Positions 48,465-64,000 of a stretch of 64,000 nucleotides of DNA are shown here, piece after piece (the first letter of the stretch is position 1; each line of letters opens with the position of its first letter). Made by a program: the position numbers and the translations under genes. The notes below the pieces were generated by a model, which was not told the DNA's origin, made no database searches, and worked only from the letters and a program-made list of their open reading frames with translations. The stretch covers positions 3,348,001 through 3,412,000 of the forward strand of contig NZ_JAAMPA010000001.1 of NCBI RefSeq assembly GCF_011758655.1. Reading direction: 5' to 3'. Origin of the DNA: Modestobacter marinus (GTDB taxonomy: Bacteria; Actinomycetota; Actinomycetes; Mycobacteriales; Geodermatophilaceae).

Positions 48465-48734
48465 ATGGCCACCTACTGCGAGGTGACCGGACGCACGCCG
48501 AGCTTCGGCAAGTCCGTGAGCCACTCGCACCGCCGCACCAACCGCCGCTTCGACCCGAACCTGCAGTCCAAGCGGTTCTTCCTGGCCAGTGAGAACCGCT
48601 GGATCCGGCTCACCGTGTCCACCAAGGGCATCAAGACCATCGACGTCCAGGGCATCGAGGCCGTCGTGGCCCGCATCCGGGCGACCGACCCCGCCGCCCG
48701 CCGTCGGCTGGGTGCGGGGCGGGGGAACGGCTGA
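48465..48734 (+). CDS. rpmB2: Ribosomal protein L28, zinc-free paralogue
   Basis: 89 residues: [20 protein letters not shown], then [17 protein letters not shown] and [15 protein letters not shown] single Cys remains (residue 5) and the other zinc ligands are gone, so it cannot form the zinc site. First gene of the plus-strand operon L28-L33-S14-S18. A GGAGG precedes the ATG. Shares one base with the L33 start (TGATG). Confidence 0.95.
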
Positions 48735-48902: not shown

Positions 48903-49205
48903 ATGGCCAAGAAGTCCATGATCGCCAAGGACCGGCAGCGGCGGGAGGTCGTCGCCCGGCACGCCGAGCGCCGCGCCGAGCTCAAGGAGGCCGCCCGCAC
49001 CGCGGCCACCCCGGAGGCCCGCGCCGAGGCGCAGGCCGCACTGCAGCGGCTCCCGCGCGACGCCAGCCCGACCCGGCTGCGCAACCGCGACGTCGCCGAC
49101 GGCCGGCCGCGGGGTCACCTGCGGAAGTTCGGCCTGTCCCGCGTGCGCTTCCGCGAGATGGCGCACGCCGGCGAGCTGCCGGGCATCCGGAAGAGCTCCT
49201 GGTGA
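48903..49205 (+). CDS. rpsN2: Ribosomal protein S14, zinc-free long form
   Basis: 100 residues: [20 protein letters not shown] and the C-terminal [20 protein letters not shown] and [20 protein letters not shown]. This is the long S14 without CxxC motifs, in contrast to the short zinc-binding type used by actinobacteria in zinc-replete cells. Third gene of the operon; S18 follows 79 bases later. Confidence 0.95.
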
Positions 49206-49632: not shown

Positions 49633-50499
49633 TCAGGGGAGCGACTCCGCGGGCAGGGCGGCGGGGCGGTCGTGGACGACGGTCCCGGCGTGGGCGGGGG
49701 AACGGCGGCGGGCGATCCGCGCGACGCCGAGGACGGCGTAGGCGGCCACCGCCATCAGCACGATGGTGCCGCCGGAAGGGGTGTCGGCGTAGTAGGAGAC
49801 CACCGTGCCGCTCACCGATACGGACACCCCGATCAGCACCGCGACGGCCAGGCTGGACCGGAAGCTGCGGGCGACCAGCTGGGCGCAGCCGGCGGGCAGC
49901 ACCATCAGCCCGCTGATCAGCAGCAGCCCCAGCACCCGCATCGACAGGGTGACGGTGGTGGCGGTGACCACGGCCAGCAGCAGGTTCAGCGGCAGCACGG
50001 GCAGGCCGCTGGCCCGGGCGTGCTCCTCGTCGAGCGCAACGGTGAACAGCGACCGGCCCAGCCCGACCGTCACCCCGAGGACGACGGCGGCCATCACGGC
50101 GAACACCACCAGGTCGGCCCGGGTCGTGGTGGTGAGCGCGCCGAACAGGTAGCTGTCCAGCGTGATCGGCGTGCCCGCCGGGGCGCGGGTGACCACGACG
50201 ACGCCCCCGGCCAGCCCGCCGTAGAACATGATCGCCAGCGCGACGTCGGCGCTGGCCGACCGCCGCGCGCGCAGCACCTCGACCGTCACCGCGCCGACCA
50301 CGGTGGTCAGCAGTGCGGTGAGCACCGGCGCGGAGCGGGTGACCAGGCCGACCGCCACCCCCAGCAGCGCGACGTGCCCGAGGCCGTCGCCGATCAGGGA
50401 CAGCCGGCGCTGCACCAGGTAGACGCCCACCGTGGGCGCGGTGAGACCGACGAGCACCGCGGCCGCCAGCGCCAGCCGCATGAACTCGTAGCTCAGCAC
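49633..50499 (-). CDS. znuB: Zinc ABC transporter permease
   Basis: 288 residues, about eight or nine helices. MRLALAAAVLVGLTAPTVGVYLVQRR with GDGLGHVALLGVAVG near the N-terminus and VTATTVTLSMRVLGLLLISGLMVLPAG in the C-terminal third are typical of the ZnuB/MntB metal permease family (the core motif is LISGLMVLPA). GTG 50499 overlaps the end of znuC by seven bases; ATG 50481 is an alternative. Last gene of znuA-znuC-znuB. Confidence 0.93.
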   Translation of the reverse strand: MLSYEFMRLALAAAVLVGLTAPTVGVYLVQRRLSLIGDGLGHVALLGVAVGLVTRSAPVLTALLTTVVGAVTVEVLRARRSASADVALAIMFYGGLAGGVVVVTRAPAGTPITLDSYLFGALTTTTRADLVVFAVMAAVVLGVTVGLGRSLFTVALDEEHARASGLPVLPLNLLLAVVTATTVTLSMRVLGLLLISGLMVLPAGCAQLVARSFRSSLAVAVLIGVSVSVSGTVVSYYADTPSGGTIVLMAVAAYAVLGVARIARRRSPAHAGTVVHDRPAALPAESLP

Positions 50500-51197
50500 G
50501 GGGCCGCCGCACCCGGGAGGGTGACCACGCGGGTGACGACGTCGGCCAGCGGGCCCAGCTCGTGCAGCACCACGACGACGGCAGTGCCGGCCTCGGCGAG
50601 CCCGGCGAGGGTCGCGGCGAGCACCCGCTGGCTGGCCGCGTCGACGCCGGCGGTCGGCTCGTCCAGCAGCAGCAGCTCCGGGTCGCCGGCCAGCGCCCGG
50701 GCCACCAGCGCCCGGCGCTGCTGGCCGCCGGAGAGCTCGGCGAGCGGCCGGCGGTCGAACCCGGCCAGCGCCGTGCCCTCCAGGGCGCAGTCGACCGCGC
50801 AGCGGTCGGCCTCGCCGAAGCGCTGCCAAGGCCGCAGCCGGTTCAGCCGCCCGGTGGAGACGAGCTCCCGCACGGTCACCGGCACCCCACCGGCGACCGT
50901 GTGCCGCTGCGGCACGTAGCCGACCCGGTGCCAGTCGCGGAACCGGGCGCGGGGCCGGTCGAACAACCGCACCTCTCCGGCGTGCACCTCGCACAGGCCC
51001 AGCAGCCCGCGGACCAGCGTCGACTTGCCGGACCCGTTGGGGCCACGGACGGCGACCACCTCCCCGGGGGTGACGGTCAGGTCGACCCCGGTGAGCACCG
51101 GCTGCCTGCCGTGGCCGAACGCGCCGCCGCGCACCGACAGGACGGCGTCCGACGTGGGCGCGTGAGGCCGGGCCGGGGCGCTGGCGCTCAGGAGCAC
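50493..51197 (-). CDS. znuC: Zinc ABC transporter ATP-binding protein
   Basis: 234 residues. Walker A GPNGSGKST (about 52-60), a Q-loop at YVPQRH, signature LSGGQQRR and Walker B LLLLDEPTAGVD. The small size and close link to ZnuA and ZnuB fit the zinc/manganese family. GTG 51197 overlaps the znuA end by ten bases, so translation is coupled. Confidence 0.93.
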   Translation of the reverse strand: MLLSASAPARPHAPTSDAVLSVRGGAFGHGRQPVLTGVDLTVTPGEVVAVRGPNGSGKSTLVRGLLGLCEVHAGEVRLFDRPRARFRDWHRVGYVPQRHTVAGGVPVTVRELVSTGRLNRLRPWQRFGEADRCAVDCALEGTALAGFDRRPLAELSGGQQRRALVARALAGDPELLLLDEPTAGVDAASQRVLAATLAGLAEAGTAVVVVLHELGPLADVVTRVVTLPGAAAPC

Positions 51198-52213
51198 TGC
51201 TGGCCCTCGCGGAGACTGGCCAGGTTGGCCCGCATGATCTCCAGGTAGTCCTCGCCCCGTGAGGCGTCGGTGAGCCCCTCGATGGGGTCCAGCTGCCGGG
51301 TCTGCGCGCCGGTCTCCCGCGCGACGGTCTCCGCGACGGCCGGGCTGACCAGCGTCTCGAAGTAGATGGTCGCCACGTCGTGCTCCCGGACGAACTCGGT
51401 CGCCTCGGTCAGCGCGTCGGTGGAGGGTTCCGCGTCCGGCGCCAGCCCGCTGATGCCGAACTGCTCCAGGCCGAAGGAGCCGGCGAGGTAGCCGAAGGCG
51501 GTGTGGCTGGTCACCAGCTCCCGGCTGGCGCAGTCGGCCAGGCCGGTGCGGAACTCCTCGTCCAGCTGCTCGAGCTCGGCGCGCAGCTCCGCGGCGTTGG
51601 CGGTGTACTCCTCGGCGTTGGCCTCGTCCACGGTGCCCAGGCGCTCGGCCAACGCGTCACCGACGTCGGCCATCCGCATCGGGTCGTGCCAGAAGTGCGG
51701 GTCGGTCACCACCTCGTCGGCGTGCCCCTCCTCGTCGACGTGCTCCTCCTCGTCGGCGTGCGCGTCTTCGTCGGCGTCTTCGTCGGCGTCCTCGTCGGCG
51801 TGCTCGTGGTCGTGGGCCTGGTAGGTGAGCGAGAGGTCGGCCGGCTCGCCGGCGTCGAAGGCGGAGTCGGCGGCCTGCTGCTCGATCGCGGCGTCCACGG
51901 CCGGCTGCAACGTCGGCAGGTGCACGACGACGTCGGCCTCGGCGACGGCGGCGACGTCCCGTGGGGTGAGCTCGTACTCGTGCGGCTCGGCGCCGTCCGG
52001 GGTGAGGGAGGTGACGTCGGCCAGGTCCCCGGCCACCTGCTCGCTGAGCCACGCGAGCGGGTAGAACGCCGCCACGACCGTCAGCCCGCCGTCGTCGGTG
52101 CCGGCGTCGGCGTCGGCGGTGCCGGAACAGCCGGCCAGTGCCACGGCCGTGGCGCAGGCGAGGGTCACCGTGGACAGCGAGCGGGAGGTGGTGCGTCGGG
52201 AGGAGGACGGCAT
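51188..52213 (-). CDS. znuA: Zinc-binding lipoprotein of the ZnuABC importer
   Basis: 341 residues from ATG 52213. A signal peptide ends in VALAGC, a lipobox. EPHEYELTP, DPHFWHDP, TSHTAFGYL and LDPIEGL provide the three His and one acidic ligand of the cluster A-I family, and an acidic His/Asp/Glu loop lies between residues about 150 and 185, as in zinc ZnuA proteins. The DNA of the loop is a set of short GTCGTC/CTCGTCGGCG-type repeats. -10 GACGAT ends six bases before the ATG, so the mRNA is probably leaderless. An earlier in-frame ATG (52261) lies upstream of the promoter and is rejected. Confidence 0.94.
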   Translation of the reverse strand: MPSSSRRTTSRSLSTVTLACATAVALAGCSGTADADAGTDDGGLTVVAAFYPLAWLSEQVAGDLADVTSLTPDGAEPHEYELTPRDVAAVAEADVVVHLPTLQPAVDAAIEQQAADSAFDAGEPADLSLTYQAHDHEHADEDADEDADEDAHADEEEHVDEEGHADEVVTDPHFWHDPMRMADVGDALAERLGTVDEANAEEYTANAAELRAELEQLDEEFRTGLADCASRELVTSHTAFGYLAGSFGLEQFGISGLAPDAEPSTDALTEATEFVREHDVATIYFETLVSPAVAETVARETGAQTRQLDPIEGLTDASRGEDYLEIMRANLASLREGQQCS

Positions 52214-52219
52214 GGCCCG

Positions 52220-52248
52220 ATCGTCGCCATGATGAGAATCATTGTCAA
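52220..52248 (-). promoter_or_regulatory. znuA promoter with perfect Zur-like box
   Basis: Minus strand: -35 TTGACA (52248-52243, consensus), 17 bases, -10 GACGAT (52225-52220). TGAGAATCATTGTCA at 52233-52247 fits TGAnAATnATTnTCA at all 12 fixed positions and covers the -35 and spacer. Zinc-bound Zur would block znuACB transcription. Confidence 0.85.
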
Positions 52249-52273
52249 ATAAGGCGATCATGGGAAGGGCCGC

Positions 52274-54064
52274 TCAACCCACCGCAGCGGGCTGCTGCGG
52301 GGACGGGGCCGTCGTCCCGGTCGCCACCGGTGCCGGTGTGGCCGGCCGCCGCTGCCTGCGGCTGAGCCCGGACAGCGACACCGCGAGCACGGCGGCGGTC
52401 ACCAGCGCGCCGGTCGGGGCGAGCACCGCCCACGGCGCCCGCTCCACGTAGGGCATCCCCTCGGCCAGCAGCAGACCCCACTCGGGGGTCGGCGGCGCCG
52501 CCCCCAGGCCGAGGAAGCCCAGCGCGGCCAGCGCCAGGGCGATGCCCGGCAGCCGCAGCACGGCGTTGCGGGCGGCGGCGGGCAGCACCGCGGGCACCAC
52601 GTAGCGCCAGGTGATCGCCGCCGGCCCCACCCCGAGCACCGGCAGCACGGTCACGTGCCGCTGCCGCCGGACCTCCTCCGATGCGGCCGCCACGTAGGCG
52701 GCGATCGGCGCCCACGCCACCAGGGCCACGGCCAGGGCCGCTCCGGACTGCGACGTGCCCAGCACCGCGGCGACCAGCACGCCGACGATCACCGGGGGAG
52801 CGGCGTTGGCCACCTCCACCGGCCCGACGGACGCCCGGGGGACCAGCCCCACCAGGACGCCGACCACCAGGGTGGCCACGACCACCAGCGCCGCCGTCCC
52901 GACGGTCTGCACCGCACCGTGCGCCACGCGGGCCAGCAGGTCCCGCCCGCTCGCGTCGGCACCGAAGGGCAGGGCGGCGCTGGGCGCGGCCAGCCGGGGA
53001 TGTGCGGAGACGAAGGGGTCGCGCCCCAGTCCGGCGGCGACGACGCCCGCCAGGAGCGCGGCGGCACCGGCCGGCAGCAACCAGTCGCGGCGGCGGGACG
53101 GGGTGGCGCGGGCCGGCACCGGCACGCTGCCGCTGCGCAGCGCCCGCCCCAGCAAGAGCGCCCGGGTGAGCGCGGCCAGGCCGCCGAGGACCGCGGACAC
53201 CCCGAGCAGCAGCAGCATGCCCGCCTGCAGGGTCGGCAGGTCCTGCGCCTGCGCGGCACCCAGCACCGCCCGTCCCAGCCCGGGGACGGCGAACACCTCC
53301 TCGACGGCGACGGCCCCACCGGTGAGGCCGACGAGCACCAGCGCCACCTGGGTGGTCAGCGCGGGCAGCGTGCGGCGCACCAGGGCCCGGGCGAGCTGCC
53401 CGGTCGAGGCGCCGGCCACCTGCCAGGTGGCCACCCAGCGCTCGGTGCCGGTGACGCTCAGCCCGTCGGCCACCAGGCGGCCGATCAGCCCGCCGGCCGG
53501 CAGGCCCATGGCCAGCGCCGGGAGCACCACCGAGGGCAGCCCGGTCCAGCCGTAGGGCTCGAACCAGCCCAGCCACACCGCCCCGACCAGGAGCAGCACC
53601 GAGGCCAGCAGGAACTCCGGCAGCGCGGTGAGCGCGGCGCCCGCGGCACCACCGGTCCGCCCGGACCGGCCGCGGGCGACCCGGCGCAACGGGGGCACGC
53701 ACAACAGTGCCGCGGTGACCAGGGCCACCACGAGCGCGGAGCCCATGAGCGTCACCGACACCCCGAGGGCGCGGATGATGCCCGGGCCCACGGGTCCGCC
53801 GGAGATCCAGGAGGTGCCCAGGTCGCCGCGCAGCAGCCCGGACAGCCAGTGCCCGAGCAGTCCCAGCGGCCCGGCGTCCAGACCGAGCTCGGCCCGGATC
53901 GCCGCCAGCGCCTCCGGGGTCGCCTCCTGCTCGGCCGAGCGTGCCCGGAGGATCGACAGCTCCGGGCTGCGCCCGGACAGCCAGGGCAGCACCCCGACCA
54001 GGGCGACCACGCCGAGGACGGTGGCCACCCGGGACGCAGCGGTCACCCATCCCCGGCGCGGCAC
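52274..54064 (-). CDS. Fused two-domain permease of a Dpp/Nik/Cnt-type ABC importer (copy A)
   Basis: 596 residues from GTG 54064, with two complete permease units in one chain. Unit 1 (about 1-300) has DLGTSWISGGPV and the coupling loop GASTGQLARALVRRTLPAL; unit 2 (about 325-560) has GADASGRDLLARVAHG and LGVGPAAITWRYVVPAVLPA. In most systems these are separate DppB and DppC (CntB/CntC, NikB/NikC) proteins. It is the last gene of importer A, four bases after the substrate-binding protein and 60 bases before znuA on the same strand. A parallel fusion begins at 62591. Confidence 0.88.
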   Translation of the reverse strand: MPRRGWVTAASRVATVLGVVALVGVLPWLSGRSPELSILRARSAEQEATPEALAAIRAELGLDAGPLGLLGHWLSGLLRGDLGTSWISGGPVGPGIIRALGVSVTLMGSALVVALVTAALLCVPPLRRVARGRSGRTGGAAGAALTALPEFLLASVLLLVGAVWLGWFEPYGWTGLPSVVLPALAMGLPAGGLIGRLVADGLSVTGTERWVATWQVAGASTGQLARALVRRTLPALTTQVALVLVGLTGGAVAVEEVFAVPGLGRAVLGAAQAQDLPTLQAGMLLLLGVSAVLGGLAALTRALLLGRALRSGSVPVPARATPSRRRDWLLPAGAAALLAGVVAAGLGRDPFVSAHPRLAAPSAALPFGADASGRDLLARVAHGAVQTVGTAALVVVATLVVGVLVGLVPRASVGPVEVANAAPPVIVGVLVAAVLGTSQSGAALAVALVAWAPIAAYVAAASEEVRRQRHVTVLPVLGVGPAAITWRYVVPAVLPAAARNAVLRLPGIALALAALGFLGLGAAPPTPEWGLLLAEGMPYVERAPWAVLAPTGALVTAAVLAVSLSGLSRRQRRPATPAPVATGTTAPSPQQPAAVG

Positions 54065-54068
54065 CGGG

Positions 54069-55577
54069 TCAGCCCTCCCCGAGGGTGGTCTCGCTGGTGA
54101 TCAGCGCCCGCTCCCGCGGGTCGCGGACCGCGCCGGACACCCCGGCGGCCTCGCCCTGGATGACCCGCTCGTGCAGCATCGGCACGGCGGCACCGGTGTC
54201 CAGGATCGCCCGCTCGGCGTCGATCACCGCCTGCTGGCGCTGCGGGCCGGGCTCCGCGGCCGCGGCCACCTCCAGGGCGGCGTCCACGGCGGGGTCGCAC
54301 AGCTGGGCGATGTTGAACGAGCCCTCGCAGGCGAAGTCGCTGTACATGTAGGCGACCGGGTCGCCGGAGTCCAGCACCGTCGCCCGGGACAGGATGAACG
54401 CGTCGAACGCCCCGGCCAGGGCGTCGGCCTCGATGAACGCGTACTCCCGCACGTCCTGCTCCACGGTGAACCCGACGGCCTCCAGCTGCTGCTCCAGCAG
54501 CACGGCGACCTCGGGCAGCTCCGCCCGGTCGGTGAAGGTGCCCAGCGTGATCGTGGTGCCGGCCGGGACGGCGGGCGCGGACGGGTCCGCCCGGTCCTCG
54601 CGCAGCTCGGCGGCCCAGGGGATCGCCGGGCCCAGCAGGCCCTCGGCGATGTCGGCGCGGCCCTCGTAGACGGTGTCCACGATCGTCGCCCGGTCGACGG
54701 CGGCCCGGGCCGCGGCGCGCACCGCCGGGTCGGCGAACGGTCCGGAGGTGGTGTTGAGGTACAGGGTGTTGGTGCGCGGCATCGGCACCTCGTGCACCAG
54801 TTCCTCGTCGATCAGCCCGGCCTGCGAGACCGGCACCGCCTCGGCGATGTCGGCGGTGCCGGTGCGCAGCGAGGCGGCCCGTGCGGTGCCGTCGGGGACG
54901 AAGGAGACGTCGATGCCGGCGGCCGCGGCGGGGTCGCCCCAGTAGCCGTCGAAGCGGTCCAGGGTCGCGCCGGAGGTGCCGTCCACGGCGACGAGCTCGA
55001 ACGGTCCGGTGCCGTGCCCGACCGGGTCGACCCGGCCGTCGGTGCCGTAGGCGGCCGCGGCCAGCACCGCCAGCTGCGGGCTGGACAGCCGCTGCGGGAC
55101 CAGCGGGTCGGCCTCGCCGGTGGTCACCACGACGTCCTGCCCGTCGGCCTCGGCGGTCAGCTCGACGCCGTCCAGGATCCGCGGCCGGGGCGAGGCCTGG
55201 TCGGCAGCGGTCAGCGCTGCGGCGGCCTGCTCCGCGGTCAGCTCGGTGCCGTCGTGGAACTCGACCCCCTCGCGCACGGTGAACCGCCAGGTCAGGTCGT
55301 CGATCTGGGTCCACTCGGTGGCCAGCGCCGGCTGGGCGTCGCCGTCGGGGTCCAGGACCACCAGCGTCTCGGCCGTGCTCCACCGGGACAGCTTGAAGGC
55401 GTCGTCGGTCAGCGGGTTCAGCCCCGAGCGCGGTGGCTGCAGCATGGCCAGGGAGATGCGGGCGTCGCCGGCGGCATCGGTGCCGCCGCCGGCGGGGGAG
55501 CTGCTGAAGCAGCCGCTGGTGAGCAGGGCGACCGAGGCGCCCAGGACGAGTACGCGGGTGGTGCGGGAGGGGGACAT
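54069..55577 (-). CDS. Dpp/Cnt-type substrate-binding lipoprotein (copy A)
   Basis: 502 residues. Signal peptide with lipobox LLTSGC (about residue 23), then a family 5 binding-protein fold: LNPLTDDAFKLSRWSTAETL, EFHDGTELTAEQAAAAL, ADIAEGLLGPAIPW and CEGSFNIAQLCDPAVDAAL with two Cys that may pair. It lacks any obvious signature for peptides. Its paralogue in importer B is clearly similar in the C-terminal half (CEGSYNLARLCDPAVDAAV). Family members bind peptides, nickel or metallophore-metal complexes; the zinc context favours the last. Confidence 0.9.
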   Translation of the reverse strand: MSPSRTTRVLVLGASVALLTSGCFSSSPAGGGTDAAGDARISLAMLQPPRSGLNPLTDDAFKLSRWSTAETLVVLDPDGDAQPALATEWTQIDDLTWRFTVREGVEFHDGTELTAEQAAAALTAADQASPRPRILDGVELTAEADGQDVVVTTGEADPLVPQRLSSPQLAVLAAAAYGTDGRVDPVGHGTGPFELVAVDGTSGATLDRFDGYWGDPAAAAGIDVSFVPDGTARAASLRTGTADIAEAVPVSQAGLIDEELVHEVPMPRTNTLYLNTTSGPFADPAVRAAARAAVDRATIVDTVYEGRADIAEGLLGPAIPWAAELREDRADPSAPAVPAGTTITLGTFTDRAELPEVAVLLEQQLEAVGFTVEQDVREYAFIEADALAGAFDAFILSRATVLDSGDPVAYMYSDFACEGSFNIAQLCDPAVDAALEVAAAAEPGPQRQQAVIDAERAILDTGAAVPMLHERVIQGEAAGVSGAVRDPRERALITSETTLGEG

Positions 55578-55616
55578 CGGTCCGATCTCTGTTGGGGTGT
55601 GCCGGGGCGGTGCGGG

Positions 55617-56417
55617 TCAGACGGGGAGGGTGGGGACGGCGGCGAGCAGCTCGCGGGTCCTCGGGTGGTCGGGGGAGGCGAGCAGGTCGGCGGTGGGCCG
55701 GTCCTCGAGCACCCGGCCATCGCCCAGCACCACCGTGCGGTCGCACAGCCGGGCGACGACGGCCAGGTCGTGGGAGACCAGCAGCAGGCCCAGCCCCTGC
55801 CGGGCCGACAGCTCGGCGAGCACCTCGACCACCTGGTCGCGCACGGGGAGGTCCAGCCCGCTGACCGGTTCGTCGGCCAGCAGCAGCGCCGGGCCGGGGG
55901 CCAGTGCCCGGGCCAGGGCGACCCGCTGGGCCTGCCCGCCGGAGAGCTCCCCGGGCCGCCGACCGGCGAGCTCGGGGTCCAGGCCCACGCGCCGCAGGGC
56001 GGTGGCCACCGTGGCGTCGTGGTCGCCGGGCACCTGCAGGTGGCGCAGCGGCACCGCGACCAGGTCGCGGACGGTCGCGCGCGGGTCCAGCGAGCCGGCC
56101 GGGTCCTGGGGCACGTACTGGACGAGTCGGCGGTACCAGCGCAGCGACGCCGTCGGGCCCGGCCGGACGGGGCGGCCGGCGAAGGTGACCGTGCCGCGGT
56201 CGGGGCTCTCCAGGCCGAGCAGGCAGCGCAGCAGCGTCGACTTGCCCGAGCCCGACGTGCCGACCAGGCCGACCCGCTCGCCGGCGCCGACCCGCAGGTC
56301 GACGGCCTGCAGGGCGGTGACGACGTCCCGTGGGCCCCAGGGTCGGGCACGGGGCAGCGCGTAGCTGCGCTCGATGCCCGTGGCGGAGAGGACCGGGTCG
56401 ACGGCCGGAACGCTCAC
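55617..56417 (-). CDS. ABC importer ATP-binding protein, NikE/CntF-like (copy A)
   Basis: 266 residues from GTG 56417, overlapping the upstream ATPase stop by four bases. Walker A GTSGSGKST, Q-loop YVPQDP, signature LSGGQAQR and Walker B LLADEPVSGLD are present. It has no C-terminal oligopeptide extension with Cys residues, so its size matches NikE/CntF rather than OppF. It should pair with the neighbour to form an ATPase heterodimer. Confidence 0.9.
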   Translation of the reverse strand: MSVPAVDPVLSATGIERSYALPRARPWGPRDVVTALQAVDLRVGAGERVGLVGTSGSGKSTLLRCLLGLESPDRGTVTFAGRPVRPGPTASLRWYRRLVQYVPQDPAGSLDPRATVRDLVAVPLRHLQVPGDHDATVATALRRVGLDPELAGRRPGELSGGQAQRVALARALAPGPALLLADEPVSGLDLPVRDQVVEVLAELSARQGLGLLLVSHDLAVVARLCDRTVVLGDGRVLEDRPTADLLASPDHPRTRELLAAVPTLPV

Positions 56418-57232
56418 GACGTCGCTCCGACCGGGGTCGGGAGTGCGCCGGCGCGGGCGGCGCGGACCAGCGCGGCGGTCTGCTCGTGCTGCGGGTCGCT
56501 CAGCAGCCGGGTGATCGGGGCGTCCTCGACCACGGTCCCCTCGTGCAGCACCACCGCGCGGTCGCACAGCGCGGCCGCGACCGCGAGGTCGTGGGTGATG
56601 AACAGCAGGGCCGTGTCCCGGGTGGCCTCGCGGAGCAGGGCGACCACCTGCGCCTGGGTGACCAGGTCGAGCGCGGTGGTCGGCTCGTCGGCGACCACGA
56701 GCCCGGCGCGGGAGGCGAGCGCCAGGGCGATGCAGACGCGCTGCCGCTGGCCGCCGGACAGCTCCCCCGGCGTGCTGGCGAGCACCCGACGGGAGTCGGT
56801 CAGCCCGACCGTCGCGAGCAGCCCGGCGCGCTCCCGGTCGAGCGCGGCGCCGCGGAGCCCACGGTGGGCGCGCAGCGGCAGGGCCAGCTGCGCGCCCACG
56901 GCGACCAGTGGGTTCAGGGCCGCCGCCGGGTCCTGCCCCACCCCGGCGACGCGGGCGGCGGGCGGCCGGCGGGCGGGTGCCCGCCCGGTGACGTCGACGC
57001 CGGCCACGTGCACGCTGCCGCCGACCTCGGCGCCGGCGGGCAGGGTGCCCAGCACCGCCGCGGCGGTCAGCGACTTCCCGGACCCGGAGGCGCCGATGAG
57101 CGCCACCCGTTCGGTCCCCGCGACCTCGAGCCGGACCCCGTGCACCAGCCGGCGGCCGCTCACGGCGACCGTGAGGCCGTCGACGAGGAGGGCCGGTGAG
57201 CGGCCCTGCGACGAAGCTGGAGCGACAATCAT
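56414..57232 (-). CDS. ABC importer ATP-binding protein, NikD/CntD-like (copy A, first gene)
   Basis: 272 residues from ATG 57232 (MIVAPASSQGRSPALL). Walker A GASGSGKSL, signature LSGGQRQR and Walker B LVVADEPTTALD. The start codon lies inside a Zur-like box (57224-57236), and -10 TATCTT ends seven bases before the ATG, which suggests a leaderless mRNA. First gene of importer A (ATPase-ATPase-binding protein-permease). Longer in-frame starts run to 57406 but through the box and promoter. Confidence 0.87.
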   Translation of the reverse strand: MIVAPASSQGRSPALLVDGLTVAVSGRRLVHGVRLEVAGTERVALIGASGSGKSLTAAAVLGTLPAGAEVGGSVHVAGVDVTGRAPARRPPAARVAGVGQDPAAALNPLVAVGAQLALPLRAHRGLRGAALDRERAGLLATVGLTDSRRVLASTPGELSGGQRQRVCIALALASRAGLVVADEPTTALDLVTQAQVVALLREATRDTALLFITHDLAVAAALCDRAVVLHEGTVVEDAPITRLLSDPQHEQTAALVRAARAGALPTPVGATS

Positions 57233-57245
57233 TGTCGTCAAGATA
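57224..57245 (-). promoter_or_regulatory. Zur-like box and -10 over the start of importer A
   Basis: CGACAATCATTGTCG (57223-57237) is a palindrome around one central base and matches TGAnAATnATTnTCA at 10 of 12 fixed positions. On the minus strand -10 TATCTT (57245-57240) is followed by seven bases and the ATG at 57232. The -35 is weak. Zur would cover the transcription and translation start of importer A. Confidence 0.8.
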
Positions 57246-57298
57246 GCCGATGACGTTCGCCCGGTCGCCGGCTGCCCTCCCCGGGCCGGTCGCCTTCC

Positions 57299-57320
57299 TG
57301 CAAACGGCTTGCAATACGGT
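57299..57320 (+). promoter_or_regulatory. Possible promoter and operator of importer B operon
   Basis: TGCAA-N5-TTGCA inverted repeat (57299-57313) lies just before a TAnnnT -10, TACGGT (57315-57320). No good -35 is seen, so an activator or repressor could bind the repeat. It does not match the Zur pattern. Confidence 0.45.
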
Positions 57321-57396
57321 TCCCGGTGCGAGACCCCCTCGCGGCCCGGCTCGAGCGCTCCCACGCCGCCGGCACGACCCCACCAGGAGGAACCCC

Positions 57397-58209
57397 TTGG
57401 CCGCACGCACCCCCTCCGGTCGCCGGGTGGGCGCCGTCCGCCCCGAGCTGGCCGACCTGCTCCGTCCCACCGGGGTGCTCCCGCAGTCGGCCGGCAGCGT
57501 CGCCGAGGCGCGCGAGCTGCTCGCCCGGGACGGCGCGGTCGTGGTGGCCGAGCCCGGCCCCGGGCCCGAGGCGCTGCCGGTGGTGGCCGCGCAGGTCTAC
57601 GGCGACCGCTTGCGGCAGCTGTTCGCCGTCCGCCCGCTGCGCCAGCAGGCCGGTGAGCTGCTCGGGCTGCACAGTGACGGGGCGTACGTGGTGGTCGACG
57701 TGCACGGCCGCACGGTCAGCCTGCGCGACCCGGACGAGGACGGGCTGCTGCAGCGCTGCGTCCGGCCGGCACCCGAGGGCGGGGACTCCTTCCTGGTCGA
57801 CGGGTACGCCCTGGTCGACGCGCTGGCCACCGGGTGCCCGGAGCTGCACGCCTTCCTGACCGGCACCGACGTCGACTACTTCGGCGGCTGGCAGACCGCA
57901 CCCCACGAGGTCCCGCGCACCCCCTTGGTGCGCCGGCTGGTCGAGCACACCCGGGCCGGCCGCCGCGTGGTGCGGGCCAGCGAGACCGCCGTCCCGGTGC
58001 CGCGCGAGCCGTGCGCCGCCGAGCACGAGGCGCACCTGGACCTGTGGGCCGACGTGCTGGCCACCGCCGTGGACGTGGTGCCGCACTTCCGGCTGGAGGC
58101 CGGCGAGGTGCTGGTCGTCGACAACTACCGCTGCCTGCACGGCCGCGACCCCTTCACCGGCCAGCGGGACGTCGACGTGCTGACCGTGCTGACCGCGGAC
58201 GCCTGGTGA
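57397..58209 (+). CDS. TauD/TfdA-type Fe(II)/2-oxoglutarate oxygenase
   Basis: 270 residues from TTG 57397, with AGGAGG six bases upstream; longer in-frame starts lack a site. The 2-His-1-carboxylate metal triad is visible as H92-S-D94 (LLGLHSDGAYV) and H248 (CLHGRDPF), with Arg250 in place to bind 2-oxoglutarate. Such enzymes hydroxylate small molecules including amino acids; CAS-like and TfdA-type members act on siderophore or antibiotic precursors. It is first in importer B and coupled by GTGA to an ATPase gene, so hydroxylation of the transported compound or its precursor is a plausible role. No substrate can be named. Confidence 0.87.
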   Translation: MAARTPSGRRVGAVRPELADLLRPTGVLPQSAGSVAEARELLARDGAVVVAEPGPGPEALPVVAAQVYGDRLRQLFAVRPLRQQAGELLGLHSDGAYVVVDVHGRTVSLRDPDEDGLLQRCVRPAPEGGDSFLVDGYALVDALATGCPELHAFLTGTDVDYFGGWQTAPHEVPRTPLVRRLVEHTRAGRRVVRASETAVPVPREPCAAEHEAHLDLWADVLATAVDVVPHFRLEAGEVLVVDNYRCLHGRDPFTGQRDVDVLTVLTADAW

Positions 58210-59003
58210 CCGACGGCCTCCCTCTGCTGCGGGTGCGGGACCTCACCATCGGCTTCGCCGGGCGCACCGTGGTGGCCGGCGTCTCCTTCGACGTCGCCGC
58301 GGGGGAACGGGTCGCCCTGGTCGGCGCCTCCGGCTCGGGCAAGACGCTGACCACGCTGGCGCTGCTCGGGCTCCTCCCGCCCGACGCCGAGGTGTCCGGC
58401 AGTGTCCAGCTGGCCGGCACCGAGGTGGTGGGCGCCGCCGAGCGGGACCTGCGTCCGCTGCGCGGGCCGGTCACCGCCCTCGTGCCGCAGGACCCGGGCA
58501 CGTCGCTCAACCCGCAGGTGCGGGTGGGCCGGCAGGTGGCCGCGCCGCTGCGCCGGGCCGGCGTGGGTCGCCGGCCGGCCGCGGCCCGGGCAGACGAGCT
58601 GCTGGCGGAGATGCGGCTGCCGGCCGGCACCGGGCGGCGGTTCCCGGTGCAGCTCTCCGGCGGGCAGCGGCAGCGGGCCGCGCTCGCCATGGCGCTGGCC
58701 GGGGCACCCCGGCTGCTGGTCGCCGACGAGCCGACGTCCGCGCTGGACGCCACCGCCCAGCACGGCGTGCTCGCGGTGCTCGGCCGCGCCACCCGTGAGC
58801 GCGGCGCCGGGCTGCTGCTGGTCACCCACGACCTGGCCGCCGCGGCGACCACCTGCGACCGGGTGCTGGTGCTCGACGAGGGCCGGCTGCTCGCCGACGG
58901 GCCGCTGCGCGAGGTGCTGGCCGGGCACGCCCATCCGGCGGTGCGCGCGCTGGTCGAGGCCACCGCCGCGCTCAGCCCGCCGGCCCTGGTGGGTGCCCGG
59001 TGA
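58206..59003 (+). CDS. ABC importer ATP-binding protein, NikD/CntD-like (copy B)
   Basis: 265 residues from GTG 58206, overlapping the oxygenase stop (GTGA). Walker A GASGSGKTL, Q-loop LVPQDPGTSL, signature LSGGQRQR and Walker B LLVADEPTSALD. Paralogue of the copy A ATPase at 56414. It ends with a GTGA overlap into the second ATPase gene. Confidence 0.9.
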   Translation: MTDGLPLLRVRDLTIGFAGRTVVAGVSFDVAAGERVALVGASGSGKTLTTLALLGLLPPDAEVSGSVQLAGTEVVGAAERDLRPLRGPVTALVPQDPGTSLNPQVRVGRQVAAPLRRAGVGRRPAAARADELLAEMRLPAGTGRRFPVQLSGGQRQRAALAMALAGAPRLLVADEPTSALDATAQHGVLAVLGRATRERGAGLLLVTHDLAAAATTCDRVLVLDEGRLLADGPLREVLAGHAHPAVRALVEATAALSPPALVGAR

Positions 59004-59782
59004 GCCCAGAGCTGGTGAGCGCAGAGCCGCTGCTGGCCGCCCGCGGGCTGACCCGCCGGTACCGGGGCAGCGACGTCCCGGCGCTGGACGGCGTCGACCT
59101 GGTGGTCGGCGCCGGGCGGCGGGTGGCCGTGGTCGGGGAGTCCGGTGCCGGCAAGTCCACCCTCACCCGGCTGCTGCTCGCGCTGGAGCGCCCCGACGCC
59201 GGGGAGGTCACCTACCGCGGACGGCCGGTGCACCCGGGCCGGCCGCGCTCGCTGCACTGGTTCCGCCGGGCGGTCCAGGTGGTGCCCCAGGACCCCGGCC
59301 GTTCGCTGAGCCCGCGGATGCGGGTCGGGGAGGCCGTCGCCGAGCCGCTGCGCTGCCTGCGGGTGGCCGGGGACCACCGTGCCCGGGTCGCCGAGCTGCT
59401 GCTCGCGGTCGGGCTCGACCCGGACGCCGCGACGCGGCTGCCGAACGAGTTCTCCGGCGGCCAGCGCCAGCGGATCGCGCTGGCCCGCGCGCTCGCCCCG
59501 CGCCCGGAGGTGCTGATCGCCGACGAGCCGGTCAGCGCGCTGGACGCCGCCGTCCGGCTCCAGGTGGTCGACCTGCTGCGCGAGGTCAGCGACGCCGAGG
59601 GCGTGGCGCTGCTGGTCGTCTCGCACGACCTGGGCGTGGTCGCCGCGCTCTGCTCCGACGTCGTGGTGCTCGCCGGCGGCCGGGTCGCCGAGGCCGGGCC
59701 GACCGACCGGGTGCTCACCGACCCGGTCAGCCGCGAGGCGCACGCGCTGGTCGCCGCCGTCCCGCGGCTGGTGCTGGCGTGA
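59000..59782 (+). CDS. ABC importer ATP-binding protein, NikE/CntF-like (copy B)
   Basis: 260 residues from GTG 59000. Walker A GESGAGKST, Q-loop VVPQDPGRSL, signature FSGGQRQR and Walker B VLIADEPVSALD. Lacks a C-terminal Cys-rich peptide-transporter extension. Coupled on both sides by four-base overlaps. Confidence 0.9.
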   Translation: MSPELVSAEPLLAARGLTRRYRGSDVPALDGVDLVVGAGRRVAVVGESGAGKSTLTRLLLALERPDAGEVTYRGRPVHPGRPRSLHWFRRAVQVVPQDPGRSLSPRMRVGEAVAEPLRCLRVAGDHRARVAELLLAVGLDPDAATRLPNEFSGGQRQRIALARALAPRPEVLIADEPVSALDAAVRLQVVDLLREVSDAEGVALLVVSHDLGVVAALCSDVVVLAGGRVAEAGPTDRVLTDPVSREAHALVAAVPRLVLA

Positions 59783-61092
59783 CCGGCCGGATCAGCTGGG
59801 CGCCGTTCGTGCTCTTCCGGCGGCTGCCCGCCGTGCCCCGCCTGCTCCTGCTGTCCCAGCTGGCCTTCAACGTCGGCTTCTACCTGGTGGTGCCCTTCCT
59901 CGCGGTGCACCTCACCGAGGACCTGGCGCTGGCCGGCGGGCTGGTCGGCCTGGTGCTCGGCGTGCGCACCTTCAGCCAGCAGGGGCTGTTCTTCCTCGGC
60001 GGCGGGCTGGCCGACCGGTTCGGGGTGAAACCGGTCGTGGTCATCGGCTGCCTGATCCGGATCGCCGGGTTCGGCGTGCTCGCCGGAGCCACCTCGCTGC
60101 CCGCGGTGCTCGCCGGCACCGTGCTGGTCGGCTTCGCGGCCGCGCTGTTCTCCCCGGCGGTGGAGTCGGCGCTCGCCGACCAGGGGCACCGGCTGGAGGC
60201 CGCCGGGGTGGTCACCCGGGCCGAGGTGTTCGGCCTGGATGCGATCGCCAGCAAGCTCGGCTCGGTCACCGGCCCGGCGCTCGGCGCCGTCCTGCTCACC
60301 GTGCCGTTCAGCCTCACCTGCTGGATCTCCGCCGGGGTCTTCGGCGTCGTGCTCGCCGCCCACCTGCGCTGGCTGCCGCGCGACCTGCGCACCGAGGGCA
60401 GCGGTGAGGAGAGCGTGCTCGCCGGCTGGGGGCACGTGCTGCGCAACCGCACCTTCCTGGCCTTCACCGCCTGCTACTGCACCTACCTGCTCAGCTACAA
60501 CCAGCTCTACCTCGCCCTCCCCGTGGAGCTGTCCCGGGCGACCGGCGGCCAGGGGGCCCTGGGCTGGCTGTTCGTGCTGGCCGCGGTGTCGGTGCTGCTG
60601 TTCCAGCTGCGGGTCACCGCCCGCGCCCGGCGGGCCGGGGCGCACCGGGCGCTGCCGTTCGGCTTCGCACTGATGAGCGCCTCGTTCCTGCTGGTCGCGC
60701 TGTGCGCCCCGTTCGCCCCGCCGTCCGGGATCTGGGCGCTGGCGCCGGCCGTGGGCATGGTGCTCCTGCTCTACACCGGCCAGATGGTCGCCGTCCCGCT
60801 CGCCCAGGACCTGGTGCCCCGGCTGGCCGGGGAGCGGCGGCTGGGCGCCCACTTCGGCTTCCTCGCCTCCGCCGGCGGCGCCGCGGTGCTCGTCGGCAGC
60901 ACCGGCGTGGGCGCCCTGCTCGATCTCGCCGATCGCCCGCAGCCGGCCGCCGCCGTCCCGTGGCTGGTGCTCGCCACCCTGCCGGCTGCCTCGGCCGTCG
61001 GCCTGGCGGTGCTCACCCGGCGGATCGCCCGCACCCCGAAGGCACGGCCGCCGGCCCCCGCCGTCCCGGCCGAGGAACCGGCGCACCCGTGA
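59779..61092 (+). CDS. MFS exporter within importer B (CntE-like position)
   Basis: 437 residues from GTG 59779, coupled to the ATPase stop by GTGA; about 12 helices. GLADRFGVKPVVVIG is motif A, and FNVGFYLVVPFLAVHL forms the first helix. The fold and length fit single-substrate exporters such as EntS/MdtH and CntE. A CntE-type exporter beside a Nik/Cnt-type importer is the layout of opine metallophore loci, in which CntE secretes the metal-free ligand. That function is inferred from context only. It continues into the binding-protein gene. Confidence 0.85.
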   Translation: MTGRISWAPFVLFRRLPAVPRLLLLSQLAFNVGFYLVVPFLAVHLTEDLALAGGLVGLVLGVRTFSQQGLFFLGGGLADRFGVKPVVVIGCLIRIAGFGVLAGATSLPAVLAGTVLVGFAAALFSPAVESALADQGHRLEAAGVVTRAEVFGLDAIASKLGSVTGPALGAVLLTVPFSLTCWISAGVFGVVLAAHLRWLPRDLRTEGSGEESVLAGWGHVLRNRTFLAFTACYCTYLLSYNQLYLALPVELSRATGGQGALGWLFVLAAVSVLLFQLRVTARARRAGAHRALPFGFALMSASFLLVALCAPFAPPSGIWALAPAVGMVLLLYTGQMVAVPLAQDLVPRLAGERRLGAHFGFLASAGGAAVLVGSTGVGALLDLADRPQPAAAVPWLVLATLPAASAVGLAVLTRRIARTPKARPPAPAVPAEEPAHP

Positions 61093-61115
61093 CCACCCCA
61101 CCGAGAAGAGGAACC

Positions 61116-62594
61116 GTGTCCCGCGCCGCTGGTGCACTGCTCGCGCTGCCCCTCCTGCTGGCCGGCTGCTTCGCCCCGGCCGCGGAGGAGCCGACCGACG
61201 GCGGGCAGCGGCTCGCGCTGGCGCTGGCCTTCCCGCCGGTCGCCGCGCTGTCCCCGTTCACCGAGGACGCCCTGTTGCTCACCCGGATGGGGGTGGCGGA
61301 GACCCTCGTCGGCCTGGACGAGACCGGCGCGCCGACCCCGCTGCTGGCCGAGAGCTGGGACCGGGTCGACGACCGGACCGTCACCCTCGACCTGCGGGAC
61401 GGCGTCCGGTTCCACGACGGGACGCCGCTGGACGCCGAGGCCGCTGCCGGCGCGCTGACCACGGCGGCCGCCGCCAGCCCCGCCCCGCGGTCGATCGACG
61501 GCCTGGGCCTCACCGCCACCGCCGTGGACGAGGACACGGTGCAGGTGCAGCTGGCCGAGCCCGATCCGTTGCTGGTGCAGCGGTTGGCCGCCCCGGGCAT
61601 GGTGGTGCTCGCGCCGGCCGCCTACACCGACCCCACGGCGCCGGACCCGGTCGGCACCGGCACCGGGCCGTTCGAGCTCACCGAGCTGCGCGGCGCATCC
61701 GGCGCCACCCTGACCGCCGACCCCGACCACTGGGCCGGGGCGCCCGAGCTGGACGGCGTGGATGTCACCTTCCCCGCCGACGCGGCCGCCCGCACCGCCG
61801 GGCTGCGCGCCGGCGAGCTGGACGTGGCGGTCACCCTGCCGATCGCCCAGCTGCCCACCCTGACCGACACGGAGGTGCTCTCGGTCCCGCTGCCCCGGCT
61901 GGTCTCCCTCTCCCTGGACACCGCGGACGGTCCGTTCGCCGACCCGGGCCTGCGCGCGGCCGCCGCGGCGGCGATCGACCCGCAGCCGGTGGTCGACGGC
62001 GTCTTCGAGGGCCGGGCCGACGTCGCCGAGGGGCTGTTCACCGACGACACCGTCGGCGGGGCGTCCCGGCCGGCGGTCAGCCTGCCCCCGGCCACCGACC
62101 CGGCCGGGACGAGCATCCGGCTGGCCACCTACTCCGACCGGGCGGAGCTGCCGGAGGCGGCCGCGGTGCTCGCCGAGCAGCTGCGGCAGGCCGGCTTCAC
62201 GGTGGAGGTCGTGGTCGCCGAGTACGCCGCCCTGGAGACCGACCTGCTCGCCGGCACCTACGACGCGGTGCTGGGCAGCCGGCTCTACCTGGGCGACACC
62301 GGCGACCCGGTCGGCTACCTCGCCGCCGACCTGACCTGCGAGGGCAGCTACAACCTGGCCCGGCTCTGCGACCCGGCCGTCGACGCCGCCGTGGCCGAGG
62401 CCGCGGCACTGGCCGACCCGCAGGAGCGTCGGGCGGCGGCGCTGGCTGCCGAGGCCCGGGTGCTGTCCACCGGCGCGGTGGTCCCGGTGCTGCACGAGCG
62501 CACGCACACCGGGTACGCGCCCGGGGTCAGCGGCCTGGCCGGCGACCCGTTCGACCGGCGGCTGCTCACCGTCGAGACGACGGTCCAGGGGTGA
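61116..62594 (+). CDS. Dpp/Cnt-type substrate-binding lipoprotein (copy B)
   Basis: 492 residues from GTG 61116 with AGAGGA upstream; GTG 61089 (GTGA overlap) is an alternative start. Signal peptide with lipobox LLAGC. Family 5 binding-protein segments VRFHDGTPLDAEAAAGAL, ADVAEGLFTDD and TCEGSYNLARLCDPAVDAAV parallel copy A, including the Cys pair. The two copies have clearly diverged in their N-terminal halves, so they may bind different ligands. It is followed by the fused permease with a GTGA overlap. Confidence 0.9.
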   Translation: MSRAAGALLALPLLLAGCFAPAAEEPTDGGQRLALALAFPPVAALSPFTEDALLLTRMGVAETLVGLDETGAPTPLLAESWDRVDDRTVTLDLRDGVRFHDGTPLDAEAAAGALTTAAAASPAPRSIDGLGLTATAVDEDTVQVQLAEPDPLLVQRLAAPGMVVLAPAAYTDPTAPDPVGTGTGPFELTELRGASGATLTADPDHWAGAPELDGVDVTFPADAAARTAGLRAGELDVAVTLPIAQLPTLTDTEVLSVPLPRLVSLSLDTADGPFADPGLRAAAAAAIDPQPVVDGVFEGRADVAEGLFTDDTVGGASRPAVSLPPATDPAGTSIRLATYSDRAELPEAAAVLAEQLRQAGFTVEVVVAEYAALETDLLAGTYDAVLGSRLYLGDTGDPVGYLAADLTCEGSYNLARLCDPAVDAAVAEAAALADPQERRAAALAAEARVLSTGAVVPVLHERTHTGYAPGVSGLAGDPFDRRLLTVETTVQG

Positions 62595-64000
62595 CCGCCG
62601 TCGACCGGGCCGGGGTGAGCGCCCCGGCCCGGCGGCGGCGAGCTCCGGGGCGGGGACTGCTCCGATCCGTGCTCACCGGGGGAGCGGCCGTCGCCGGCAC
62701 CGGGCTGCTCGTCGGCGCGCTGCCCTGGCTGTCCGGCGACGACCCGGCCCGCACCGTGCTGCACGCCCGGGAGGTGGAGCGCGAGCCCGACCCGGCCGTG
62801 CTGGACGCGGTGCGCGCGCAGCTGGACCTCCCCGCCGACCCGGTGCGCGGCACGCTGTCCTGGCTCGGGCACGCCGCCACCGGCGACCTGGGCACCTCCT
62901 GGGTGAGCGGTCAGCCGGTCACCGACGTCGTCCCGCCGGCGCTGGGGGTGTCGGCGACCCTGGCCGGGACCGCGGCGGTGGTGGCGATCGGGCTGGCCGT
63001 GCTGCTCGCGCTGCCCGCCGTGCGCCGGGCCGCCGACGGTCGGGTGGACGGCGGTGCCGCCACCGGGGTGCTGGCCGCGGCGCTGGCCGCGCTGCCGGAG
63101 TTCGTCCTCGCCGTCGTCGGCGTCGCGGTGGTGGCCGTGGGCTGGGGATTGCTGCCGACCTCGGGGTTCACCGGCCCCGAGCACCTGGTGCTGCCCGTGC
63201 TCGCGCTCGCCCTGCCGGCCGGTGGGCTGCTGGGCCGGGTGCTGGCCGGGGCCGTGCGGGAGACCGCGGGGGAGGGGTGGGTGCGCACCTGGCGGGCCGC
63301 CGGGGTCTCCCGTGCCGCGGTGCAGCGCGCGGTCACCCGGCGGGCGCTGACCGTCCTCGTCCCGCAGGTGCTGCTGCTCCTGGTCGGGCTGCTGGGGGCC
63401 GGCGCGGTGATCGAGGCGGTGTTCGACGTGCCCGGGCTCGGCCGGGTGGCGCTGGCCGCCGCGCTGGCCCAGGACCTGCCGGTGGTGCAGGCCGCCGTCG
63501 CCCTGCTGGTGCTGCTCGGCCTGGCCGCCGGTGGTGCCGGGGTGCTGGTGCACCGCGCGCTGCTCGGGCCGGCCGCGACGGACGGCGGGCTCTCCCCGGA
63601 GCTCCCGCCCCCGGCACCGGGCACCGGGCGCTGGGCGGTCGGGCTGCTGTGCGTGCTGCTGCTGGTCGTCGCCGCCGGCCTGCTGCGCGACCCGCGCGCC
63701 CAGGACCTCGGCGACCGGCTGGCCGCGCCGTCCTGGGCACACCCGCTCGGCGCGGACGCCCTCGGCCGCGACGTGCTCGCCCGGTTCGGCGCCGGCGCGC
63801 TGCCCTCGGTCGGGCTGGCGCTGGGGATCAGCGCGGTTGTGCTCGGCGTGGGCGTCGCGGCCGGGCTGGCCGGGCGCGGGCGGGCCGGGCTGGCCGACGT
63901 GCTCAACGCGCTGCCCGCGGTGGTGGTGGGCATCGCGGTGGCCGCGGTCGCCGGCCCCAGCCTGGCCGGAGCGGCGGTGGCGGTGGGCCTGGTCGCCTGG
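62591..64000 (+). CDS. Fused two-domain permease of importer B (3' end outside window)
   Basis: Open frame from GTG 62591, overlapping the binding-protein stop by four bases, to the right edge, 470 codons with no stop. Unit 1 has DLGTSWVSGQPV and AAGVSRAAVQRAVTRRALTVL; unit 2 begins near residue 350 with LGADALGRDVLARFGAG. The order and motifs match the 596-residue copy A permease, so the whole chain should be about 590 residues and about 120-130 remain outside. It is therefore another DppB-DppC-type fusion. What follows it is unknown. Confidence 0.9.
   Translation, partial: MTAVDRAGVSAPARRRRAPGRGLLRSVLTGGAAVAGTGLLVGALPWLSGDDPARTVLHAREVEREPDPAVLDAVRAQLDLPADPVRGTLSWLGHAATGDLGTSWVSGQPVTDVVPPALGVSATLAGTAAVVAIGLAVLLALPAVRRAADGRVDGGAATGVLAAALAALPEFVLAVVGVAVVAVGWGLLPTSGFTGPEHLVLPVLALALPAGGLLGRVLAGAVRETAGEGWVRTWRAAGVSRAAVQRAVTRRALTVLVPQVLLLLVGLLGAGAVIEAVFDVPGLGRVALAAALAQDLPVVQAAVALLVLLGLAAGGAGVLVHRALLGPAATDGGLSPELPPPAPGTGRWAVGLLCVLLLVVAAGLLRDPRAQDLGDRLAAPSWAHPLGADALGRDVLARFGAGALPSVGLALGISAVVLGVGVAAGLAGRGRAGLADVLNALPAVVVGIAVAAVAGPSLAGAAVAVGLVAW

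Follow-up and report, generated by a model that had tools for sequence, protein, structure and literature searches.

The sequence analysed was a 64-kb stretch of the 5.1-Mb Modestobacter marinus genome, referred to as the window, which carries two importers of the NikA type, copies A and B, running apart from a spacer of approximately 165 bp. Gene starts were taken from a simple codon-usage caller and from reading by eye. Copy A, on the minus strand, consists of two ATPases, a substrate-binding lipoprotein and a fused permease, followed by znuA, znuC and znuB. Copy B, on the plus strand, begins with a TauD/TfdA-family oxygenase and continues with two ATPases, a predicted major facilitator superfamily (MFS) exporter, a lipoprotein and a fused permease (Table 1). 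The original prediction, made from the sequence alone, had described paralogous importers diverging near 57.24 kb with znuACB directly behind copy A. This gene order was recovered, the corresponding parts being 49% (ATPase 1), 56% (ATPase 2), 49% (lipoprotein) and 48% (permease) identical, and the znu genes gave ZnuA, ABC_tran and ABC-3 matches. The copies are embedded in a zinc-starvation island that comprises znuACB, MRF, bL31B, L28, S14, a COG0523 gene and Zur.

A predicted Zur box covers the start codon of copy A, as had been proposed; the ATG of ATPase 1 (57232-57230) lies within it. The consensus searched was TGANAATNATTNTCA, a 7-1-7 palindrome of the form tGaNNatSatNNtCa. The box in the znuA promoter, which had been called perfect, matches the full consensus but its palindrome is imperfect; the perfect palindrome is that of copy A, although both of its outer bases are off consensus. 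With up to three mismatches, three matches were found in the 64 kb compared with 0.33 expected, and none of 100 shuffles reached three; the third match, at 48400, lies between MRF and L28. The whole genome contained 11 sites with up to two mismatches, 10 of them distinct and one doubled by a contig overlap, and the reversed pattern gave none. By reading, eight of the 10 distinct sites were assigned to zinc or metal genes: znuA, MRF/L28, the A/B spacer, the COG0523 operon, an AztC-type operon (two sites), another ZnuA-family gene and an ArsR-family gene. One of the other two lies within a transporter-like gene and one has no called gene. A Zur-like box was present in all seven oxygenase-bearing Modestobacter spacers, and in the alignment of seven Modestobacter it was the best-conserved 15-column block, tied with a segment of the copy A gene itself. 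The probable -10 element of copy A ends just 7 nt ahead of the ATG, suggesting that the copy A message is leaderless.

A predicted Nur-type element, absent from the original prediction, overlaps the promoter of copy B, and the probable -10 element TACGGT stands directly after it. No other site in the 5.1-Mb genome comes within one mismatch of the pattern; by base composition, 0.34 such sites are expected genome-wide and 1.1e-5 in 165 bp. In the window alone, with up to two mismatches, there was one match compared with 0.08 expected, and 8 of 100 shuffles reached it. The case therefore rests on the position of the element and on its conservation. The dyad core TGCRA-N5-YYGCA was found in each of the 15 promoters examined from the copy B clade, and a decoy in 0/15. 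The 15 comprise the window, six other Modestobacter, genome G092 and seven rplT-locus operons from another genus, the last being close relatives and not independent cases. The core did not occur in any of 20,000 segments of 260 nt taken at random from the window, with the site itself excluded. Furthermore, the Nur-type element was present in all seven Modestobacter loci that bear the oxygenase, and in family f16 all four loci with a related lipoprotein clade have one-mismatch Nur boxes just before the lipoprotein gene. Of three sites in the genome with two mismatches, one precedes a CbiM-family nickel/cobalt energy-coupling factor (ECF) gene.

The genome encodes both Zur-like and Nur-like regulators. 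The Fur-family gene of the island (C2:4837) scored 169 bits to 3mwm (ScoZur) and 152 bits to M. tuberculosis Zur/FurB (2o03). Another Fur-family gene, C1:1984083, scored 120 bits to the S. coelicolor Nur structure 3eyy, with the next match at 49 bits, and adjoins a YgfZ-like gene (Pfam GCV_T; YgfZ by eye). The nur gene of S. coelicolor is likewise described beside ygfZ (PMC4531530). Nickel superoxide dismutase was found in 22 of 23 genomes of the genus.

The histories of the two copies were compared. The lipoprotein was detected in 38/298 genomes of the order and in 15/76 genera (E 1e-45 or better). Among 33 neighbourhoods fetched, there were 13 Zur-like and seven Nur-like sites with up to two mismatches; the decoys gave 0 and 0. 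The copy A orthologues outside Modestobacter were covered at 14 loci. In a tree of 64 lipoproteins, Modestobacter copy A was joined with the Zur-boxed and zinc-island lipoproteins of its family (100/99), and thus with other genera and families. The Nur-boxed group formed one clade (100/100), copy B was joined with the rplT group (100/99), and Pseudonocardia stood apart; the row for locus L206 is long and its placement unsure. Since each copy groups with relatives from outside, the tree indicates that the two copies are ancient paralogues that came to lie opposite each other. A local tandem duplication was ruled out because copy B joins the rplT-locus operons. In that other genus, copy B lies behind rplT, with no oxygenase and no Zur-like box there. 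The gene preceding it there, of about 260 aa, was considered as a substitute for the oxygenase; it is a SpoU-type rRNA methylase gene, sitting behind what reads by eye as rplT. Family f16 has a further locus (L192:8175-11385) in which a pair of NikA-type lipoprotein and permease genes lie face to face, with no boxes within two mismatches.

The original prediction had also likened the importers to the Nik/Cnt kind with an MFS gene, and the binding proteins do resemble NikA-like binders of metal chelates by fold and sequence. The model of the copy B lipoprotein (predicted local distance difference test score, pLDDT, 80.5) had 3t66 as its top fold, with SaNikA and NikA among the first matches. 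Nickel binders ranked first, third and fourth in the fold search, and 3t66, a nickel binder, came first by sequence as well. The top NCBIfam match of the copy A lipoprotein was Opp5A_nikA, below cut-off, and this protein clades with Zur-boxed orthologues. The copy A permease matched Opp1B at 15-293 and Opp2C at 353-567, neither reaching the equivalog cut-off. For the importer proteins of the locus, the NikA-E equivalog matches shown were all under cut-off, and no match of the locus proteins reached the cut-off of a Cnt family. NikA is described as binding Ni-, Zn- and Co-complexes of aspergillomarasmine (AMA), the Ni-AMA complex feeding cells (PMC11091072). Separately, Cys 417 and Cys 427 of the copy B lipoprotein are invariant in 26 lipoproteins and fall approximately at the metal-binding His416 loop of NikA (HMMER alignment, by eye).

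The exporter was also seen apart from the rest of copy B. The G092 locus retains copy A intact and the MFS gene of copy B alone, behind the same two boxes, whereas the other copy B genes (oxygenase, ATPases, lipoprotein and permease) are missing; the G092 genome gave one lipoprotein match, no second, and no oxygenase match. Additionally, four of the 14 loci (L184 to L187) have an MFS gene from this broad family either inside the copy-A-type operon or at its end. For these two reasons the exporter seems useful to the zinc-linked copy too.

Seven of the 11 listed genomes of the genus, and 12/298 genomes of the order, gave an oxygenase match. The residues H92, D94, H248 and R257 (HxD...H and a downstream Arg) are invariant in 42 oxygenases, namely the window protein and 41 of 68 oxygenase rows. 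Its model (pLDDT 92) had TmpA (6npb, the best) and gamma-butyrobetaine dioxygenase (BBOX) as closest folds. The fold and the Fe(II)/2-oxoglutarate residues are shared with that family; however, the best scores, 53 and 44 bits, fall short of the cut-offs of 400 and 415, and the neighbourhood differs. Eighty oxygenase loci were named, and nine in which the gene caller called no oxygenase were dropped. The remaining 71 consist of six Modestobacter, 18 Pseudonocardia and 47 others, mostly Streptomyces and Pseudonocardiaceae; the match in L030 contains an internal TGA, and this locus was kept out of the alignment. Within ten genes of the oxygenase, these loci held a FecCD-type permease (42), a FecB-type gene (39), an unrelated MFS family (34), an SbnA-like pyridoxal phosphate (PLP) enzyme (31), DUF364 (28), a GHMP kinase (17) and a small methyltransferase (16). 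An MFS gene with a NikA-B-C-type set was present in 17 of the 18 Pseudonocardia loci, with no ATPases in the operon. Among the 47 others, 31 had a Zur-like box within 350 bp of the oxygenase operon and 16 had none, the decoy giving 0. Nur-like sites with up to two mismatches numbered 14 in 56 oxygenase loci versus one for the decoy, and in six loci (L080, L084, L092, L100, L103 and L105) such a site lay near an oxygenase, MFS or FecB gene. The recurrence of the oxygenase family in Zur-boxed clusters for import and export supports this part of the original prediction. That a single enzyme family occurs with two types of importer and with two families of MFS protein, often alongside zinc-type boxes, is most readily explained by a metallophore common to them. 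As a separate observation, the MFS/lipoprotein spacers of L056-L073 have a dyad of approximately ATATGC-N8-GCACAT before a TTGACA-like -35 element (up to three mismatches in 13/17); similar sites occur elsewhere in these loci too, which makes it a weak one.

The reading we prefer, with a probability of about 0.6, is that the locus combines a zinc arm under Zur and a nickel arm under Nur, each a NikA-type importer of metal chelates. The spacer separating these long-diverged sister importers would then act as a switch for two metals. Zinc-bound Zur on the start codon would repress copy A together with the rest of the island, and nickel-bound Nur on the promoter would repress copy B. Both arms would import chelator-bound metal through NikA-type lipoproteins and fused NikBC permeases. 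The metal would be freed in the cytoplasm, where the oxygenase would probably act on the ligand by hydroxylation or oxidative N-dealkylation, either of which would weaken metal binding, and the MFS protein would export the ligand or its product. The setting of the oxygenase relatives, with exporters, siderophore-type importers, SbnA-like genes and, often, Zur-like boxes, supports a metallophore role. The "zincophore system" of the original prediction fits the Zur-linked copy A and its zinc setting; the label covers at most half of the locus, because copy B, with the oxygenase and the exporter, has its own Nur-type operator conserved in its clade.

A number of observations weigh against the two-arm reading. 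Genome-wide, Nur sites with up to two mismatches are not enriched (four real versus six for the reversed pattern, forward). The window site lacks the first T of the Nur box, the other copies miss at least one base, and the rplT-locus copies differ from the full pattern by three to four mismatches. The Nur box was defined in Streptomyces, and another regulator could read TGC-N9-GCA. Joint control is possible, the Zur box being 78 bp upstream of the copy B -10 element. Moreover, L206, an operon of the copy B clade (family f15), bears Zur-like boxes instead. None of the 18 Pseudonocardia oxygenase loci has a Zur-like or Nur-like box within two mismatches, and control by either regulator was dropped for that genus. 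The orthologues of copy A outside Modestobacter, for which Zur boxes or zinc genes had been anticipated, agreed in part. Five of the 14 loci have a Zur-like box no more than about 130 nt from where the operon starts; in L181 and L182 it covers the start codon of the ATPase gene that also bears it in the window. Two more (L180 and L183) are in zinc islands with no box at the operon; six have neither, and the box of L190 is 456 nt off and nearer to a divergent gene. Peptide-type binding proteins were also high in the fold search. Finally, no gene for ligand synthesis was found in Modestobacter.

The possibility was considered that the locus is one zincophore system in which the single spacer box places both copies under Zur, the Nur-like dyad being read by something else or by nothing. 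The presence of the box in every oxygenase-bearing Modestobacter spacer and at the oxygenase operons of other genera (31/47), the Zur-boxed operon of copy B type in L206 and the zinc link of the entire island are in its favour. However, the box sits on the start codon of copy A, 78 bp upstream of the copy B -10 element, whereas the Nur-type dyad overlaps the copy B promoter and travels to another genus and locus without a Zur-like box. This reading is considered unlikely.

It is also rather improbable that the oxygenase is a biosynthetic hydroxylase and that the strain makes a metallophore with genes elsewhere in the genome. Oxygenases of Streptomyces, Lentzea and Saccharothrix often lie behind an MFS gene and beside SbnA-like, DUF364, GHMP-kinase and methyltransferase genes, and the island itself has two methyltransferases and an FAD oxidoreductase 9-12 kb from the spacer, which may be ligand makers. 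Against this, DUF364 gave no match in the seven oxygenase-bearing Modestobacter, although 3/4 other genomes searched matched (one the query source, one a Pseudonocardia). The SbnA-like matches in the window genome are just 25-29% identical, and nicotianamine synthase (PF03059) was absent from 23 genus genomes, with a match in one of 14 control genomes. On these three results, uptake of a chelator made by others is more likely than its synthesis by the strain, barring a new chemistry; between the self-made and stolen ligands that had been offered as alternatives, the stolen one is favoured. The reported lack of CntK/L/M-like genes stands for nicotianamine synthase; opine dehydrogenase (PF10100) also gave 0/23, but the control genomes were silent too. 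CntL/M chemistry was set aside with nicotianamine synthase absent, CntM being unproven for want of a responding control. Beyond 64 kb, where the original prediction had advised looking for synthesis genes, more zinc-starvation genes and two methyltransferases were found; no nonribosomal peptide synthetase (NRPS), CntL/M or SbnA-like gene was recognised by eye in the 8.9 kb of C1 that follow or in the initial 20 kb of C2, family profiles being run on ten proteins of this extension. A role of the oxygenase in an isonitrile lipopeptide of the kupyaphore type was rejected, no acyl carrier protein, ligase or NRPS gene being recognised nearby by eye.

Ordinary uptake of peptides or free nickel, with znu a chance neighbour and the oxygenase catabolic (taurine or betaine type), is very unlikely: Pfam SBP_bac_5 includes peptide binders and the oxygenase relatives of solved structure are BBOX and TmpA, but the boxes, the island and the clade-wide operators speak against it, as do the first rank of a nickel binder by sequence and fold and the recurrence of the oxygenase with different importers and exporters.

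An extension of the two-arm reading is tentative and rather doubtful. A single small aminopolycarboxylate-like chelator from neighbouring organisms, not from the strain itself, might act as zincophore and nickelophore alike, with its zinc form taken up by the Zur arm and its nickel form by the Nur arm, the shared MFS protein re-exporting it and the oxygenase cutting or hydroxylating it so that tightly bound metal is released. If true, the locus would provide a nickelophore route dedicated to a NikA-type importer, and an oxygenase that processes metallophores.

S. coelicolor is described as having a Nur-repressed nikABCDE and a Zur-repressed znuABC. The Fur-family repressors, the box types, the NikA-type importer under Nur and znu under Zur are alike. 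Unlike in S. coelicolor, a second NikA-type importer here lies under a Zur box, the importers face across one spacer with both operators, and the MFS and oxygenase genes ride with the Nur arm. Cnt/opine systems (staphylopine, bacillopaline) are reported to pair an Opp/Nik-type importer with an MFS exporter in zinc starvation (PMC7438024), which resembles the setting here; in contrast, this locus has no nicotianamine-synthase gene, no opine dehydrogenase was found (control silent) and the Cnt cut-offs were unmet. The ethylenediamine disuccinate (EDDS) zincophore of Amycolatopsis japonicum is described as Zur-controlled, with a synthesis unlike the usual NRPS route, and AMA as binding Zn and Ni and being taken by NikA (PMC11091072). 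Both are small chelators, and no synthesis genes were found in the present genome; the tentative link to them comes from an SbnA-like gene that neighbours distant relatives of the oxygenase.

A bacterial nickelophore dedicated to NikABCDE is stated to be currently unknown (PMC11091072, 2024). A Nur-type operator on a NikA-type importer with an exporter and a ligand-type enzyme is a direct candidate for such a route, and with the zinc arm facing it, a single locus could be used to study how one chelator is shared out between two metals in a cell. Furthermore, the oxygenase as a marker points to the Zur-boxed SbnA-like clusters of Streptomyces and relatives as candidate zincophore producers. Among the titles and abstract openings returned by a literature search, no paper was recognised on these clusters or on a facing Zur/Nur pair.

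Table 1. Features of the two importer copies, their predicted operators and the neighbouring zinc-starvation genes (window numbering).
Feature	Position	Strand	Evidence or remark
Type B bL31, zinc-sparing	46821..47072	-	NF002462 119.5 bits, cut-off 86
MRF GTPase (ribosome hibernation factor recruiter)	47069..48379	-	NF047431 509.6 bits, cut-off 375
Zur-like box between MRF and L28	48400..48414	.	2 mismatches
L28 paralogue	48465..48734	+	Ribosomal_L28 88.7 bits
S14 paralogue	48903..49205	+	NF006477 131 bits, cut-off 77
znuC and znuB	49633..51197	-	ABC_tran 92 bits; ABC-3 199.9 bits
znuA	51188..52213	-	ZnuA 259 bits (run from 52261); upstream ATG at 52261 also open
Zur box TGAGAATCATTGTCA (predicted), znuA promoter	52233..52247	.	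0 mismatches
Copy A fused permease, NikB-like and NikC-like halves	52274..54064	-	BPD_transp_1
Copy A substrate-binding lipoprotein, NikA type	54069..55577	-	SBP_bac_5 192 bits
Copy A ATPase 2, NikE-like	55617..56420	-	ABC_tran
Copy A ATPase 1, NikD-like	56414..57232	-	ABC_tran (slightly longer frame used)
Zur box CGACAATCATTGTCG (predicted), copy A start codon	57223..57237	.	2 mismatches to TGANAATNATTNTCA
Probable -10 TATCTT of copy A	57240..57245	-	TAnnnT at same place in 7 aligned spacers, by eye
Nur-type box CTGCAAACGGCTTGCAA (predicted)	57298..57314	.	1 mismatch to tTGCaa-N5-ttGCAA
Probable -10 TACGGT of copy B	57315..57320	+	TAnnnT 1-2 nt past dyad in 15 promoters, by eye
TauD/TfdA-family Fe(II)/2-oxoglutarate oxygenase	57397..58209	+	Pfam TauD 72.6 bits; TTG start behind AGGAGG
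Copy B ATPase 1	58206..59003	+	ABC_tran
Copy B ATPase 2	59000..59782	+	ABC_tran
MFS exporter (predicted), MdtH-like	59779..61092	+	MFS_1; NCBIfam MdtH 136 bits, cut-off 469
Copy B substrate-binding lipoprotein, NikA type	61089..62594	+	SBP_bac_5
Copy B fused permease	62591..64354 (L004:5592-7355)	+	ends 354 bp beyond window

Beyond the window, a P-type ATPase with an ArsR-type gene and an S-adenosylmethionine (SAM) methyltransferase are followed by an exact Zur box that heads the operon L004:10637-14902 (about 67.6-71.9 kb in window numbering). This operon encodes a 90-aa protein with no Pfam or NCBIfam match, a COG0523 GTPase, a WD40 protein, an FAD/NAD oxidoreductase and a second SAM methyltransferase. 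C1 ends past it, and C2 very probably continues C1, since it starts with the same 1345 bases (L004:14578-15922, L016:1-1345); the start of C2 carries a further P-type ATPase and the Zur gene. In Corynebacterium glutamicum, a COG0523 gene and an oxidoreductase are reported under Zur control (PMC2823685). A methyltransferase of Mycobacterium smegmatis is described as Zur- and zinc-dependent (PMC7174638); these are possible counterparts of the island genes.

A SAM-methyltransferase family, MT1, recurs by Zur-like boxes (L004:9757-10592; L188:10652-11461; L126); in L188 it adjoins a copy-A-type lipoprotein gene, and in the window genome a weak Zur-like box (three mismatches) lies 14 nt upstream of it. 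A GNAT-type acetyltransferase gene adjoins the lipoprotein operon in L195 and L199, where that operon is Nur-boxed, and in L206, where it is Zur-boxed, Pfam having been run on the L195 protein only; it is possibly another ligand-modifying enzyme. The genome also has a second Zur-boxed zinc ABC operon, L017:4555-9504 (C1:1150554-1155503), with an AztC equivalog match of 361.9 bits (cut-off 350). It encodes two more lipoprotein-like proteins, one of which has no Pfam match and, as a guess from its position, may be AztD-like.

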